From the NCBI GenBank assembly GCA_013314735.1, contig JABUFD010000003.1, positions 310,001-374,000 on the forward strand: a DNA stretch of 64,000 bases, read 5' to 3'. A program made the translations under genes and the position numbers. Under the pieces are notes generated by a model, which made no database searches, was not told the origin of the DNA, and was given only the letters and a program-made list of their open reading frames with translations. The stretch comes from Anaerolineae bacterium (lineage in GTDB: Bacteria; Chloroflexota; Anaerolineae; Anaerolineales; Anaerolineaceae). Shown in pieces: positions 1,117 through 8,665 of this stretch. How positions within the stretch are numbered: the stretch's first letter is position 1; each line of letters opens with the position of its first letter.

Positions 1117-2118
1117 CTACCAGGCGTATGCTTCAGGCGCCTGCCCCACGCGCAGCGGACGGCCGCTGTTGGGGGTAAAAATAGCATCCAGTTTCGCCAG
1201 CACTTCGGGTTCCAGTTCCAGTTCTGCCGCGCGATCCAATCCATCCAGGTGTTCCTCGGTGCGAACACCGACAATCGGAGAAGCCACCGCGGGACGGGAC
1301 AATGTCCAGGCAATCGCGACCACATGTTCCTTCTCGCCAATCTCCTGGCACAGGGCTGAAAAAGCCGCCATTTGCTGGTTGGACTCCCCGAGGGTGATCC
1401 CATATTCCCGTTCCACATCACTAGTGCGGGAACCGGCTTGCGCCTTCATTTTCCCAGAGAGCAATCCGCCTGCCAGCGGCATATAGGGGATGATCCCGAT
1501 CCCGAAATCCAACGCCGCCGGGAAAACTTCCAGTTCGGGATAGCGGCATAACAGGCTGAACATGGTCTGCTCGGAAACAAAGCCCATCGAACCCCGCTGG
1601 AGCGCTTGCATCTGGAATTTTGCCAATCCCCAGCCCGGGTAATTGCTGGAGCCCATGTACAATACTTTGCCGTCGTCGATCAGCCGGTCAAAGGTGCCCC
1701 AGAATTCCTCGGGCGTGATGCGCCGGTCAATGTGGTGCACCTGGTACAGATCAATATGGTCGGTTTGCAGCCGCTGCAGGGAAGCTTCCACATGCTTGCG
1801 GACTTTATAGGCAGAAATGCCGGGCCCCTCATTGGGAATGCTGGGGTCTTTCATATTGCCGTAGACTTTGGTCGCCAGTACCACACGGTCGCGGTTGGCG
1901 GGGTTCTGCTGGAACCAGTTGCCGATGATGGTCTCTGACCGGCCTTTCTCCTCACCGCCGTAGACATTGGCGGTGTCGAAGAAATTGATCCCCATGTCCA
2001 GCGCTTTGTCCATGATTCGGAACGCCTCCTGCTCCGAGGTACGGGGGCCAAAATGCATCGTCCCGATGCAGACCCGGCTGACGGTTAAATTGGATTTTCC
2101 AAGTTTTGTGTATTTCAT
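1117..2118 (-). CDS. Aldo/keto reductase
   Basis: This 333-residue protein has the full length of the voltage-gated potassium channel beta-like and general-stress aldo/keto reductases. The catalytic residues are Asp48 and Tyr53 (FDTANVYGG), Lys84 (ATKVYG) and His128 (YQVHHID). The NADP-binding C-terminal segment IVGVRTEEHLDGL is present. The start is chosen because AGGAGG lies seven bases upstream of ATG 2118. It is a clear paralogue of the reductase ending at 983 and converges on it. AT-rich sequence with TATAAT-like boxes lies just upstream, suggesting its own promoter. Substrate is unknown. Confidence 0.92.
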   Translation of the reverse strand: MKYTKLGKSNLTVSRVCIGTMHFGPRTSEQEAFRIMDKALDMGINFFDTANVYGGEEKGRSETIIGNWFQQNPANRDRVVLATKVYGNMKDPSIPNEGPGISAYKVRKHVEASLQRLQTDHIDLYQVHHIDRRITPEEFWGTFDRLIDDGKVLYMGSSNYPGWGLAKFQMQALQRGSMGFVSEQTMFSLLCRYPELEVFPAALDFGIGIIPYMPLAGGLLSGKMKAQAGSRTSDVEREYGITLGESNQQMAAFSALCQEIGEKEHVVAIAWTLSRPAVASPIVGVRTEEHLDGLDRAAELELEPEVLAKLDAIFTPNSGRPLRVGQAPEAYAW

Positions 2119-2138
2119 CAGTTGCCTCCTGTGTTTTT

Positions 2139-2149
2139 ATTATATTATA
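2139..2149 (-). promoter_or_regulatory. Possible -10 region of the minus-strand reductase
   Basis: Two overlapping TATAAT hexamers on the minus strand (2139-2144 and 2144-2149) lie 20-30 bases upstream of the start at 2118. No convincing -35 box is seen, and the whole stretch is AT-rich, so this is a weak call. Confidence 0.35.
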
Positions 2150-2296
2150 TACATTTATATCATTTTTTAACGCCGCATGGAAATTCTGGTACATTTGCTG
2201 GGTATTAGTGGATACCAAAAACCCCCAAGTAGAGAGTTGGTTTGTGGGCAGAGGGAGAAGCGAGGCAATCAGCAAGCGGATTTCAAAATTAAAATT

Positions 2297-3187
2297 TCAC
2301 AAACCAGGCGGCTCATCTATTTCTGCCATGTTTGTAATTTTATCTTGGTGATATTGAAGTAGGTACTTTATTTTTTTATCATTATCACGCATACTATCAA
2401 ACTCTTCAAATGTAGCATAGTCCAAAGTAAATGTGACTTGCACCCAACCTTTTTCAGATGTGTGAAAGACAGTTTCTACTTCCGTATTGGGATTCGAAGG
2501 ATTATTTAAGAGAAATTGCCAGTTCATGGAATCATCAAATTGTTTTTGTACCAACTTACCACTTGAATAATCGTAAAGTAAAAAAGAAAATTGAAAATTC
2601 CAATTCTGTCCCCGAACGCCGGATACAGTACCGGTGTGATAAAAGTTTTTATTTTCTCTATCAGGGGGAATGAAGGTTAGTAATTCTACATGTTTGGGAT
2701 TACTTACGTAACCTAACTCCTCTAAAATGTCTAACCACATGTTGATAGCATTTCCGATAAGATTGGATATATAAAGAATATCGTTTTCAACAGTTTGAAT
2801 TCTAACAACTATACGAGGAACCTTATAAACACCAAAATCATCTTTAAGGTCAATAATTTCCAGAACTTCAGAGATATCTTCTTCAGATGCAATATGAGGG
2901 TTGGGATTTTTTATTGAATCCCATTTATGATGTTTAGAAATGTTGGCTATATCGCGAATATACCCAAAATCCGAACATCGAGCCTTTAGATATTCAAGAG
3001 AATATTTAGATTGATATTTTGTCGCCAATTTTTCTTTGAAATGATAGAGTTGGAAACACAAATTGACACATTCATATTTAAATTTATTCTCACCAAGTGG
3101 TATATTTTTCTTTTTTTTCTGCAGTTCATCGTATGGCGAGACAATATTTTGATAGAAATATTCGTAGATTAAATCATTATCTCTCAT
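2297..3187 (-). CDS. Uncharacterised AT-rich protein, 296 aa
   Basis: I do not recognise a named family. The protein is soluble, with no signal peptide or membrane segment. The N-terminal half looks helical and basic and carries a D-I-A-N-x-x-K-H-x-K-W motif near residue 115, a pattern reminiscent of HEPN-like helical proteins, though this is only resemblance. The C-terminal half is rich in beta-type sequence (FSFLLYDYSSGKLV, WVQVTFTLDY). AGGAGG precedes ATG 3187 at good spacing. Base composition is far more AT-rich than its neighbours and codon use follows, which suggests horizontal acquisition. It is monocistronic, downstream of the LRR lipoprotein terminator. Confidence 0.75.
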   Translation of the reverse strand: MRDNDLIYEYFYQNIVSPYDELQKKKKNIPLGENKFKYECVNLCFQLYHFKEKLATKYQSKYSLEYLKARCSDFGYIRDIANISKHHKWDSIKNPNPHIASEEDISEVLEIIDLKDDFGVYKVPRIVVRIQTVENDILYISNLIGNAINMWLDILEELGYVSNPKHVELLTFIPPDRENKNFYHTGTVSGVRGQNWNFQFSFLLYDYSSGKLVQKQFDDSMNWQFLLNNPSNPNTEVETVFHTSEKGWVQVTFTLDYATFEEFDSMRDNDKKIKYLLQYHQDKITNMAEIDEPPGL

Positions 3188-3266
3188 AAATTTCCCTCCT
3201 GTAGAACAATTTTAATGTTCAATTCTGGTGATTGCAAAGACTTCACTGTGAGATCAATTTTATATC

Positions 3267-3292
3267 AAAAACTCCCCTCTCAGGGAGTTTTT
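3267..3292 (-). terminator. Terminator after the LRR lipoprotein gene
   Basis: A 10-bp hairpin (AAAAACTCCC-type arms, 3267-3276 and 3283-3292) ends in T-tracts on both strands. In minus orientation it lies 33 bases past the stop at 3325 and terminates the lipoprotein gene, separating it from the AT-rich gene at 2297-3187. Confidence 0.75.
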
Positions 3293-3324
3293 CATGACCC
3301 AAGTGGATGGAAACCGATGACGCC

Positions 3325-5132: not shown

Positions 5133-5161
5133 AAAACAAAACCTCCCCGGTTGCGGGGAGG
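5133..5161 (-). terminator. Terminator, probably the original tRNA-Ile2 terminator
   Basis: On the minus strand an 8-bp GC stem (CCTCCCCG, 5142-5149, with 5154-5161) with a 4-base loop is followed by TTTTGTTTT. It lies 6 bases beyond the displaced tRNA 3' end at 5168-5202, where the terminator of an uninterrupted minus-strand tRNA gene would be expected. The intact tRNA at 5911-5983 has no hairpin directly downstream. Confidence 0.8.
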
Positions 5162-5167
5162 GAATTA

Positions 5168-5202
5168 ATGGGCCCAGCTGGATTCGAACCGCGACCAAGC
5201 GG
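5168..5202 (-). repeat. Displaced 3' end of tRNA-Ile2 (att-like direct repeat)
   Basis: This copy repeats the last third of the tRNA-Ile2 gene. Bases 5168-5190 are identical to 5910-5932, then one base is missing, then 5191-5202 are identical to 5934-5945. It holds the acceptor 3' strand and the T-arm but no 5' half, so it is not a functional tRNA. Its orientation matches the intact gene, as at a site-specific integration scar. Confidence 0.85.
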
Positions 5203-5246
5203 GATGTAGCGTTATTCCTATTATGGACGAATTGCATCATAACATA

Positions 5247-5822
5247 TTATTTACTAAGAATTGCTCTATATCCACAACGACAATACTTATTTTTACAGCG
5301 ATTTGGCAGAGGATTTTCTTTAAGCGCTATGTCGATTGGTATTAATTCCGCGGCCATTTTTCTGCATTCCTCACATACATATTGATCATTTGCATGCAAA
5401 ATTGTTACATACTGAAAACCCAAATCCTTGATCTCTTTCAATTCAATTTGATGTGCACTAATAACGAATTCAGAATTATCTTTTCCCTCTTTTTGTAAAA
5501 TCCACGCCATTTCCTGAAAAACATCTATCAGTTTTGTAGGATTCCTTTTGTACTTCACAATCAGCATATTGAGAATATGCCATGCAACATCATTAAATTT
5601 GGGCTCCGAACCAAATTCTGTTGTTAGTTCATTCTTTACTTTGTAAATTTGCTCATCTTTAATTCTGAATAGTTCTTTGAAATCCCAATCACTTTTCAGA
5701 GCATCAAATTCTGTAACTAACTGTTTTTTTCTAACAAAAATGGAATTGCCACAAATAGGACATTTCGTCTTTCGTTTGACTTCTTTATTTAAACAATTAC
5801 CACAATATGGACAATTATTCAT
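5247..5822 (-). CDS. Zinc-ribbon protein with a phage-type CxxC...CRC C-terminus
   Basis: The 191-residue protein begins with a zinc ribbon made of two knuckles (CPYCG at residues 4-8 and CPICG near 21-25). A helical middle follows. The C-terminal 50 residues hold a second cysteine cluster: VCEEC, then PLPNRC and KYCRC. That spacing resembles the C-terminal metal-binding module of SPP1 gp7/Mu gpF minor head proteins, which also occurs in bacterial proteins of unknown function; this is my recollection of the family pattern. Start ATG 5822 has a GGCGGGA ribosome site. It is the sole gene between the tRNA repeats and is strongly AT-rich, consistent with foreign origin. Confidence 0.75.
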   Translation of the reverse strand: MNNCPYCGNCLNKEVKRKTKCPICGNSIFVRKKQLVTEFDALKSDWDFKELFRIKDEQIYKVKNELTTEFGSEPKFNDVAWHILNMLIVKYKRNPTKLIDVFQEMAWILQKEGKDNSEFVISAHQIELKEIKDLGFQYVTILHANDQYVCEECRKMAAELIPIDIALKENPLPNRCKNKYCRCGYRAILSK

Positions 5823-5910
5823 TCCCGCCTCATTATTGAAAACAAGATCAATCTAATTGGTGTAACAGAATGACCATTGGTAACCAAAAAACACGAAAAA
5901 AGGGGGGTTA

Positions 5911-5983
5911 TGGGCCCAGCTGGATTCGAACCAGCGACCAAGCGGTTATGAGCCGCCTGCTCTAACCGCTGAGCTATGGGCCC
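5911..5983 (-). tRNA. tRNA-Ile2 (anticodon CAT, lysidine type)
   Basis: A complete 73-base cloverleaf: 7-bp GGGCCCA-type acceptor stem, D-arm GCTC/GAGC, anticodon stem with loop CTCATAA, and T-loop TTCGAAT. CAT could mean Met, but the D-arm, anticodon arm and variable loop closely follow the E. coli ileX gene, so it is called the minor Ile tRNA whose C34 becomes lysidine through TilS and which reads AUA. No 3' CCA is encoded. It serves as the integration site described at 5168-5945. Confidence 0.88.
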
Positions 5984-5997
5984 GCGGTGCAAACCCT

Positions 5998-6003
5998 ATT
6001 ATA
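5998..6003 (-). promoter_or_regulatory. -10 box of the tRNA-Ile2 promoter
   Basis: A perfect TATAAT on the minus strand lies 14 bases upstream of the tRNA 5' end, as expected for a short tRNA leader. The -35 region is weak. Confidence 0.6.
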
Positions 6004-6133
6004 CCGGATATTGGTGATTTCTTGTATGCCGCGGGTGCCTTCTGTCCCCTTGCGCGCTGCGCCGTTCTATGATGAAATTCATGCGGAACCAGTGCGTTCC
6101 ATCCCATCCCTTTTGATCAATTACAGGTACAAA

Positions 6134-7327
6134 ATGCATCCAACCCGCTCCCGCTCCCTCAGTCCCGCCCTGCGCGGCGCGCTTTATTACGCCATTTTCT
6201 TCGGTGTGATGGGCATGTATTTTGCCTATGTCAGTGTCGCTTTCATCCAGCGTGGTTACAGCGGGGTGCAGATCGGCACCTTCTCCTCGCTCTCCTCGGC
6301 CATGATCCTGCTGGCATCGCCGCTGTTGACCGGCCTGGCGGACCGCAAGGGCTGGCACCGCGAAATCCTCGCGCTGGGAGGGGTGGTGTTCTCCCTCAGC
6401 TTGCTGGGCATCCACTTCGTGCATGATTTCACCGCCGTACTGCCGCTGATGGCGCTGGCGGCGTTTGCCTCCGCCCCTTTCAACCCACTCACCGACGGCC
6501 TCACCATCCACATGGCCAACCAGCACCAGCTCGATTTCGGCAAGATGCGCGTGTGGGGCTCGATCGGGTTCACGGTCGTGTGCATCGTCGCCGGCTGGGT
6601 CTATGACCGCATCGGGCTGAGGCTGTTGTTCCTGATCGGCGCGGGGCTGTTCCTGCTGCGCGGTGCCGCCGCGGCGCTGCTCGACCCGGTGGAGAACAAC
6701 GAACCCACCCACCTCGCCATGCCCTCCGGCATCAAAGGCTGGCTTTCCCCCCTCAAAGACCGGGTGTTCGTAGTGTTCCTGGTGGGCATTTTCCTGTGGG
6801 GTTGCGCCACTTCGGGCTTTTTCACCTATGCTTCCATTTATATGGATCAGCTCTCCAGCAGTTCCTTCCTGGTGGGGCTGATGATGGCGCTCTCCGCCCT
6901 GGGCGAGGTGCCCAGCGTCCTGCTGGCCGACCGCCTGTCACGCCGGCACGGCCTGCTCCCGCTGCTGATGGCCGGCATCGCGCTGTTCGTACTCGTGATC
7001 TTCCTCACCTGCCTGCTCAGCAACCCGGTGCTGATTGTGACCCTGAGTACGGTGCGCGGATTGGGCTATGGCCTGTTCATCATTGTCGCGCTGCGCTTCG
7101 TCGACGCGCGCGCCCCGCGCAGCATGATCGGCACCTACCAGAGCCTGTATGGGCTGGCATTCTTCACCATCCCCTCGCTGGTGTTCATGCCCATCCTCGG
7201 CGTGATCTACGACAATTTCAGCCTGCAAACCCTGTTTGTGGTGGATGGCATCGTCGGAATCGCCGCGGTGTTGCTGCTGGTGTGGCTGCAGCGCCTGGTG
7301 CGCAAAGCGGAAAACCCAACCGCCTGA
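6134..7327 (+). CDS. MFS transporter, MFS_1_like family
   Basis: A 397-residue inner-membrane protein with about twelve hydrophobic segments. The N-terminal signature (GALYYAIFFGVMGMYFAYV, then SGVQIG and LLTGLADRKGW) fits the MFS_1_like group, which holds phenylpropionate- and nucleoside-type proton symporters. LADRKGW is the loop 2-3 MFS motif. The start is set at ATG 6134, where the conserved family N-terminus begins; the reading frame is open upstream but encodes no conserved sequence. It is followed 75 bases later by a close paralogue in the same direction. The substrate is not predictable. Confidence 0.85.
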   Translation: MHPTRSRSLSPALRGALYYAIFFGVMGMYFAYVSVAFIQRGYSGVQIGTFSSLSSAMILLASPLLTGLADRKGWHREILALGGVVFSLSLLGIHFVHDFTAVLPLMALAAFASAPFNPLTDGLTIHMANQHQLDFGKMRVWGSIGFTVVCIVAGWVYDRIGLRLLFLIGAGLFLLRGAAAALLDPVENNEPTHLAMPSGIKGWLSPLKDRVFVVFLVGIFLWGCATSGFFTYASIYMDQLSSSSFLVGLMMALSALGEVPSVLLADRLSRRHGLLPLLMAGIALFVLVIFLTCLLSNPVLIVTLSTVRGLGYGLFIIVALRFVDARAPRSMIGTYQSLYGLAFFTIPSLVFMPILGVIYDNFSLQTLFVVDGIVGIAAVLLLVWLQRLVRKAENPTA

Positions 7328-7402: not shown

Positions 7403-8665
7403 ATGGACAATTCCCGCAAGCCCCTTCGCCATCACCTCTCCCCCTACCTGCGCGGCGGCATCTACTACGCCGTGCACTTCACCATCGTTTCGGTGTATTT
7501 TTCTTATGTCAATGTCGCCTACATCGAACGCGGCATCAGTGGCGTGCAGCTGGGTACCCTCAGCGCGGTGGGATCCGTACTGATGCTGATCGCCTCCCCC
7601 CTCCTGACCGGCCTGGCCGACCGCAAGGGCTGGCACCTGGCATTTCTCGCGCTGGGCAACCTGATCTTCGGCCTGTCGGTGATCGGGATCAACTTCGCTT
7701 ACAGCTTCCCGCTCCTGCTGCTGGTGACATCGGTCGGCGGATTCTTCAAAGCCCCTGCCAACCCCATCGGAGACGGCCTGGTGATCCGTATGGCCAACAA
7801 GCACCACATTAACTTTGGGCAGATGCGCGTGTGGGGATCGCTCAGTTTTGCGGTGTTCTGCCTGCTGGCCGGGCGGCTGTGGGACCTGATCGGGCTGGAA
7901 TGGTTGTTCTGGATCGGCGGTTCGCTGTTTTTCCTGCGCGCGCTGATGGCGGTCCTGCTGGACCCGCCCGAAAAACAAACGGGGCCGCAGCACACGCCGG
8001 GCATGGCGCGCGGCAGCCTGCTGACGCCGCTCAAAGACCGCCTGTTCTTCGTCTACCTGGCAGCGATGGTGCTGTGGGGATGCGCCATGAACGGCTTTGG
8101 CTCCTACATTTCGATCTATATCAAGCAGCTGACCAATGCCACCACCCTGGTCGGGCTGGCCGTGGCGCTGCCGGCGCTGGCGGAAATTCCCACCGTCTAC
8201 CTGGGGGAGCGCTTCATCCGCCGTTTCGGCCCCCTGCCGATCCTGATGTTCGCCATCGCCCTCACGATGATGGTATCCGCATTGACCGCCTTTCTCAGCA
8301 ATCCCGCGCTGATCATCGCCCTTAACGCATTGCGCGGCTTTGGCCTCGGGTTCTTTATCGTGGTGGGTGTGCGCTATGTTGATTCCCGCGCGCCCTCAGA
8401 CCAGGTGGGCACCTACCAGAGCCTTTCCGGTGTCACGCTCTATACCATCCCCTCGCTGGTGTTCATGCCGCTCCTCGGCTATGTGTATGACACTTACAGC
8501 GTGAATGCCACCTTCCTGGTCTCTTCCGCCATGGGCGTCCTCGCCCTGCTGGTACTGGCACGCCTGCAGCGAATGACGGTATTGGAAACGCGCCGTACAG
8601 CCAGGCCTGCATCAGCAACAATCCCGGCAGATGAAGCATCTTCCGGGATTGCAGTGATGGATTGA
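7403..8665 (+). CDS. MFS transporter, tandem paralogue
   Basis: The 420-residue protein has the same architecture as its upstream neighbour and matches it closely over its length: GGIYYAVHF for GALYYAIFF, the shared LLTGLADRKGWH, FGQMRVWGS for FGKMRVWGS, and GTYQSL with TIPSLVFMP near the C-terminus. This indicates tandem duplication. The C-terminus carries an extra hydrophilic tail of about 30 residues. No strong ribosome site precedes ATG 7403. The pair may be co-transcribed and could transport related sugars or aromatic acids; that is inference. Confidence 0.85.
   Translation: MDNSRKPLRHHLSPYLRGGIYYAVHFTIVSVYFSYVNVAYIERGISGVQLGTLSAVGSVLMLIASPLLTGLADRKGWHLAFLALGNLIFGLSVIGINFAYSFPLLLLVTSVGGFFKAPANPIGDGLVIRMANKHHINFGQMRVWGSLSFAVFCLLAGRLWDLIGLEWLFWIGGSLFFLRALMAVLLDPPEKQTGPQHTPGMARGSLLTPLKDRLFFVYLAAMVLWGCAMNGFGSYISIYIKQLTNATTLVGLAVALPALAEIPTVYLGERFIRRFGPLPILMFAIALTMMVSALTAFLSNPALIIALNALRGFGLGFFIVVGVRYVDSRAPSDQVGTYQSLSGVTLYTIPSLVFMPLLGYVYDTYSVNATFLVSSAMGVLALLVLARLQRMTVLETRRTARPASATIPADEASSGIAVMD

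Follow-up and report, generated by a model that had tools for sequence, protein, structure and literature searches.

The region analyzed here lies within a 64,000-nt stretch of DNA (hereafter the window) from an Anaerolineae bacterium. ARAGORN and Rfam both place a single tRNA gene with the anticodon CAT at 5911–5983 on the minus strand. ARAGORN prints this tRNA as Met, and yet the designation tRNA-Ile2 is correct because its best matches in E. coli are annotated as tRNA-Ile (88–89% identity). The locus comprises the following features, listed in window coordinates.

5142–5161, minus strand: intrinsic terminator just outside the displaced tRNA copy.
5169–5202, minus strand: displaced copy of the tRNA 3′ end (tRNA positions 39–73, one base deleted).
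5202–5219, minus strand: putative attR arm signal, AGGAATAACGCTACATCC, immediately followed by CGCTTGG, a match to WGGA-N14-CGCTnGG.
5203–5910: AT-rich inserted segment, about 709 nt.
5247–5822, minus strand: cargo gene, 191 amino acids, with two Cys-rich (zinc-ribbon-like) modules.
5875–5910, minus strand: possible attL-side arm, TTTTTTGGTTACCAAT, a weak candidate located close to where integrase-bearing elements have TTTTGTnCCA.
5911–5983, minus strand: intact tRNA-Ile2, anticodon CAT, presumably restored at the attL side.

Positions 39–73 of tRNA-Ile2 recur at 5202–5169 as a direct repeat, wherein 97% of the positions match, one base is deleted, and the two copies are spaced 742 nt start to start (E ~3e-11 in 20 kb). 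The terminator at 5161–5142, CCTCCCC...GGGGAGG, includes an 8-bp stem followed by TTTTGTTTT and is the only good one at the locus; beside the intact tRNA-Ile2 a terminator was looked for and none was found. An earlier note on this DNA had claimed a repeat of the tRNA 3′ end 742 bases away with a one-base gap, and a terminator that lies beyond the displaced copy but is lacking at the intact tRNA. The repeat is real, and both terminator observations are borne out. The terminator is probably the original one of tRNA-Ile2. The same note had also spoken of decay, on the basis of the single-base deletion in the displaced copy. An intact tRNA gene at one end and a direct, displaced 3′ fragment at the other, as present here, is the arrangement of tRNA-integrated genomic islands; the integrase gene expected inside such an island is absent from the window insert.

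The insert has a G+C content of 0.31–0.34 versus about 0.6 in the genes on both sides, and a single 191-aa ORF (5822–5247) occupies about 80% of its length. No recombinase, transposase, or transfer gene is present in the insert, wherein this ORF is the sole one, and thus the description of a one-gene insert without an integrase holds. The cargo protein has no match among curated protein families. Its homologs are rare in the class, being limited to G594 and G525 (33–36%) and a partial match in G537, and the one homolog outside the class is a Curtobacterium plasmid protein (26%). Searches with the cargo gene gave no match in the genome contig collection or the phage collection and one weak, partial match in the viral contig collection. 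The Cys pairs at both ends of the protein are conserved in G525 and G594, and therefore the gene is apparently intact. From this Cys pattern we would guess that the product binds zinc. Structure prediction from the single sequence reached a mean pLDDT of 61.5, which is too poor for a fold search.

Two other features of the window lie near this locus. A second AT-rich patch (2100–3300) carries one 296-aa orphan gene (2297–3187) and is flanked by genes resembling those for an aldo-keto reductase and a leucine-rich-repeat protein; its ends show no tRNA repeat. In addition, two adjacent transporter-like genes (5987–7327 and 7403–8665) probably represent a tandem duplication, given that they share 66% DNA identity over 1 kb.

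Larger elements with the same repeat plus an integrase, which the earlier note had suggested looking for, are indeed present in relatives. A family of tyrosine integrases, all from Anaerolineae records and matched in 80 of 400 genomes of the order, adjoins either tRNA-Ile2 (loci L045, L104–L107, and L170) or tRNA-Asn (L111–L117). The closest members of this family adjoin tRNA-CAT and others adjoin tRNA-Asn. The architecture is one wherein the integrase lies next to the intact tRNA and the displaced 3′ copy is located at the opposite end. Among twelve integrase units, the displaced copy is found 3.7–11.8 kb from the tRNA, with the integrase of G027 being a fragment. A member of the family gives only a marginal match to the integron-integrase model. 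Genome G035, which was found by searching the family with the tRNA, has a 34-nt copy 3.7 kb behind tRNA-Ile2, and the intervening segment encodes a tyrosine integrase beside the tRNA, a replication-initiator-like protein, and, as judged by eye, a helix-turn-helix regulator. The T-stem of this tRNA (L045) is GAAGG/CCTTC versus GCAGG/CCTGC in the displaced copy, and the latter stem is also present in many family members. Paired changes of this kind point to replacement of the old half by the incoming one.

A second integrase type may also use the tRNA-Ile2 site. Two closely homologous XerC-like recombinases, at L047 9293–10237 (G006) and L049 8709–9653 (G034), adjoin a lone 42-nt copy of the tRNA-Ile2 3′ end. 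Contig positions suggest that these elements are about 70 kb in length, and the presumed element at L049 includes methylase/helicase-like genes.

Most integrase elements carry a recurring signal, WGGA-N14-CGCTnGG, just inside the displaced copy. In most units, exactly 14 nt separate the WGGA from CGCTnGG or its counterpart, and in L106 and L112 the spacing is two bases shorter. We built an end-signal profile, AnCCnAAnAGGAATnGAnCCnnTATC, from 29 sites, many of which were picked up via the WGGA pattern itself. The window carries this signal in exact register (P ~3e-4 for random AT-rich sequence at fixed register), and the site is the top score inside the insert. Its score falls toward the bottom of the family range, below most family sites, and with the WGGA columns removed the match is weak (P 0.024). 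The match of the candidate tRNA-proximal (attL-side) arm is likewise weak (P about 0.04).

Units without an integrase, about 0.8–3.3 kb in length, are located behind the same tRNA genes in nine relatives (G025, G029, G116, G026, G028, G280, G306, G086, and G019). The end signal is carried by nine such units in eight genomes, mostly with one to four genes each. In G116, two integrase-less units stand in tandem, and in G025 a 5.4-kb integrase element stands in tandem with an 837-nt unit with one DUF4386 gene and a 2.5-kb unit. All three G025 units start with CCTTTTAAGCA...GCArTTAACAATT, a sequence missing from the start of the DNA that lies beyond the final G029 unit; the small units thus have an arm in common with the integrase element. 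With the exception of G025, the integrase family was not found in the genomes that carry integrase-less units, and thus most of these units look stranded. Their cargo is diverse, including an acyltransferase with an HNH fragment, a DndB-like protein, a short-chain dehydrogenase, a methylase with a TIR protein, and, as judged by eye, HicA/HicB-like proteins. A 3.1-kb integrase-less unit at tRNA-Ile2 in G086 (L051, 10107–13173) encodes a TIR-domain protein and a DNA methylase whose tail is nuclease-like, and is possibly a mobile defense island.

Partial tRNA copies of other forms were also observed. Some tRNA 3′-half copies contain, as an insertion in the T-arm, a short CCC-loop-GGG hairpin (e.g., GGTCGCTGG CCCCATCGAGGGATGATA TTCGAATCCATCCGGGCCCA), occur with three different tRNA genes, and are sometimes tandem about every 60 bp. 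Such copies are listed here by locus.

L058 1747–1850, L060 12710–12800, L047 9099–9249, L065 1951–2100, and L066 1152–1213: hairpin-bearing copies behind tRNA-Ile2.
L107, near tRNA-Arg, 338–412: hairpin-bearing copy.
L165, near tRNA-Asn: hairpin-bearing copy.

Cassette arrays were considered as an explanation for tRNA-like repeats that occur in tandem in G006, G011, and other genomes, and this idea was rejected, as the repeats are ~60-bp units with no genes between them; a partial copy at L046 was rejected as a displaced fragment, since ARAGORN calls it tRNA-Cys. Behind the att signal in L120 (G019), L125 (G108), L135 (G026), and L184 (G017), the displaced copies exhibit a T-loop change with ACCCGCAGGG-like hairpins, and the window's displaced copy lost its base in the same T-arm. 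Changes of this type in displaced copies might block re-excision.

The integrase of the related family has no match in the window's genome, wherein five other tyrosine-recombinase matches are found elsewhere. The sole genus-mate genome (69% complete) has no tRNA-Ile2 match at which an empty site could be shown, and its MFS homolog is in a different context. No clean empty site was isolated among the relatives, including genus g5. In this genus the upstream gene is shared, and segments homologous to a downstream gene are found at varying distances: less than 100 nt from the displaced copy in G029, and as far as about 17 kb from the tRNA in G027. These distances are in line with an insertion hot spot, although paralogy may also account for them.

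Judged from these sequence comparisons, the window segment is very probably an integrated, non-autonomous mobile unit that was moved by a tyrosine integrase of this order. Insertion into the tRNA-Ile2 3′ end, as the earlier note proposed, is well supported by the integrase-bearing relatives and by the end signal in exact register. An integrase of the family would have recombined DNA bearing a tRNA-Ile2 3′ copy, perhaps as a circular intermediate, with the chromosomal tRNA-Ile2. The tRNA would thereby have been restored by the incoming copy, with the old 3′ end and its terminator displaced by about 0.7 kb. Because the unit has the end signal and no integrase, the enzyme either came in trans from a related element or was lost later by internal deletion. 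In a host without this integrase, the unit would be stranded unless a helper arrives, and it is probably immobile now. The proposal of a remnant or a very small satellite served by an integrase from elsewhere fits these data, as the family integrase is absent from the genome and other integrase-less units exist.

How the unit came to be so small can be viewed in two ways. A full integrase element could have entered tRNA-Ile2 and then lost its integrase, replication gene, and most of its cargo, such that both ends and one gene were left and mobility ended at the deletion. Longer integrase elements are frequent at this site, one base has been lost from the displaced copy, and shrinking also happens, as seen in G019, whose 3.3-kb unit lacks an integrase and retains a part similar to the G025 integrase element. 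This unit and the 2.3-kb unit of G017 have parts in common with that element or its HTH gene. Set against this, tblastx found no trace of the backbone of such an element within the insert, the gene is closely framed by the two ends, and in G025 a similar one-gene unit of 837 nt, which has good arms, adjoins an integrase element. We therefore regard loss from a larger element as a serious candidate that falls somewhat short of an even chance, and the tight fit and the G025 parallel favor a unit that was small from the outset.

If instead the tRNA gene had been duplicated locally in tandem and most of the second copy then deleted, a repeat would also result, and some relatives do have partial tRNA copies close behind tRNA-Ile2. 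In the window, however, the copy shares its starting tRNA position with those of the integrase-bearing units and has their end signal in front of it, and the intervening DNA is AT-rich with a gene whose homologs are patchy and distant, making such a history very unlikely. A chance repeat is refuted by the E value of ~3e-11 for the one direct copy. Nor does the insert resemble an element of a different class, for instance a transposon that includes a piece of tRNA-like sequence, since it has no terminal or other inverted repeats and no transposase, and the same arrangement recurs in many genomes. No point in support of chance or a transposon was found, and we consider both together extremely improbable. 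The best reading is thus a CIME-like, non-autonomous unit.

Most likely, then, the window unit belongs to a known kind, stranded mobile DNA at tRNA genes, of which it is a very small new example. It illustrates the small size that an integrase-dependent insert can have, at about 0.7 kb and one gene with the end signal of the helper family retained, and the likely helper integrase family can be named. Some sister units may serve in defense, given their cargo (TIR protein with DNA methylase, DndB-like, and HicA/HicB-like proteins). Throughout the order, integrase-bearing and stripped units share their tRNA genes, which offers a system for asking whether single genes ride site-specific integrases outside integrons.

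Several known systems share features with this unit. Like the tRNA/tmRNA genomic islands cataloged by Islander (PMC4383910), it has a regenerated tRNA at one end and a displaced fragment at the other, whereas those islands are defined by a tyrosine integrase, which the window insert lacks. Like CIMEs (PMC3146451 and the ICE/IME literature), it has no recombination or transfer genes, and it may be flanked by att-like ends, with a matching attR arm (P ~3e-4) and a weakly matching attL arm (P 0.04); CIME accretion is paralleled by the sister units in tandem with an integrase-bearing element in G025. It differs from CIMEs in that its genome is without the helper integrase, the unit is a single gene, and mobility is a prediction.

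An analogy can also be drawn to integron gene cassettes, in that the units here are likewise small, often single-gene, diverse in cargo, and possibly moved in trans by one enzyme. Rather than a folded attC, the site here consists of a tRNA 3′ end plus an arm motif, and no integron platform was seen. It is conceivable, if doubtful, that minimal cassettes, mostly of one gene, circulate in the order much as in integrons, recombining at the 3′ ends of tRNA-Ile2 or tRNA-Asn and moved in trans by a single tyrosine-integrase family; the smallest examples seen here would be the 837-nt G025 unit and the insert in the window.

The closest published case comes from Dehalococcoides, which also belongs to Chloroflexota, in the form of ssrA islands without integration modules. 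Fifteen such islands were proposed to be cis-mobilizable elements, and the ssrA islands are tandem, AT-rich, and bounded by direct repeats of the RNA gene 3′ end, immediately within which lies a conserved motif (McMurdie et al. 2011, PMC3146451). Those islands use ssrA (tmRNA) and the serine recombinase DsiB and are far larger, whereas tRNA-Ile2 or tRNA-Asn and a tyrosine recombinase are used by the elements related to the window unit. The window unit shares with them an AT-rich composition, direct repeats of an RNA gene 3′ end, and a motif inside the repeat.
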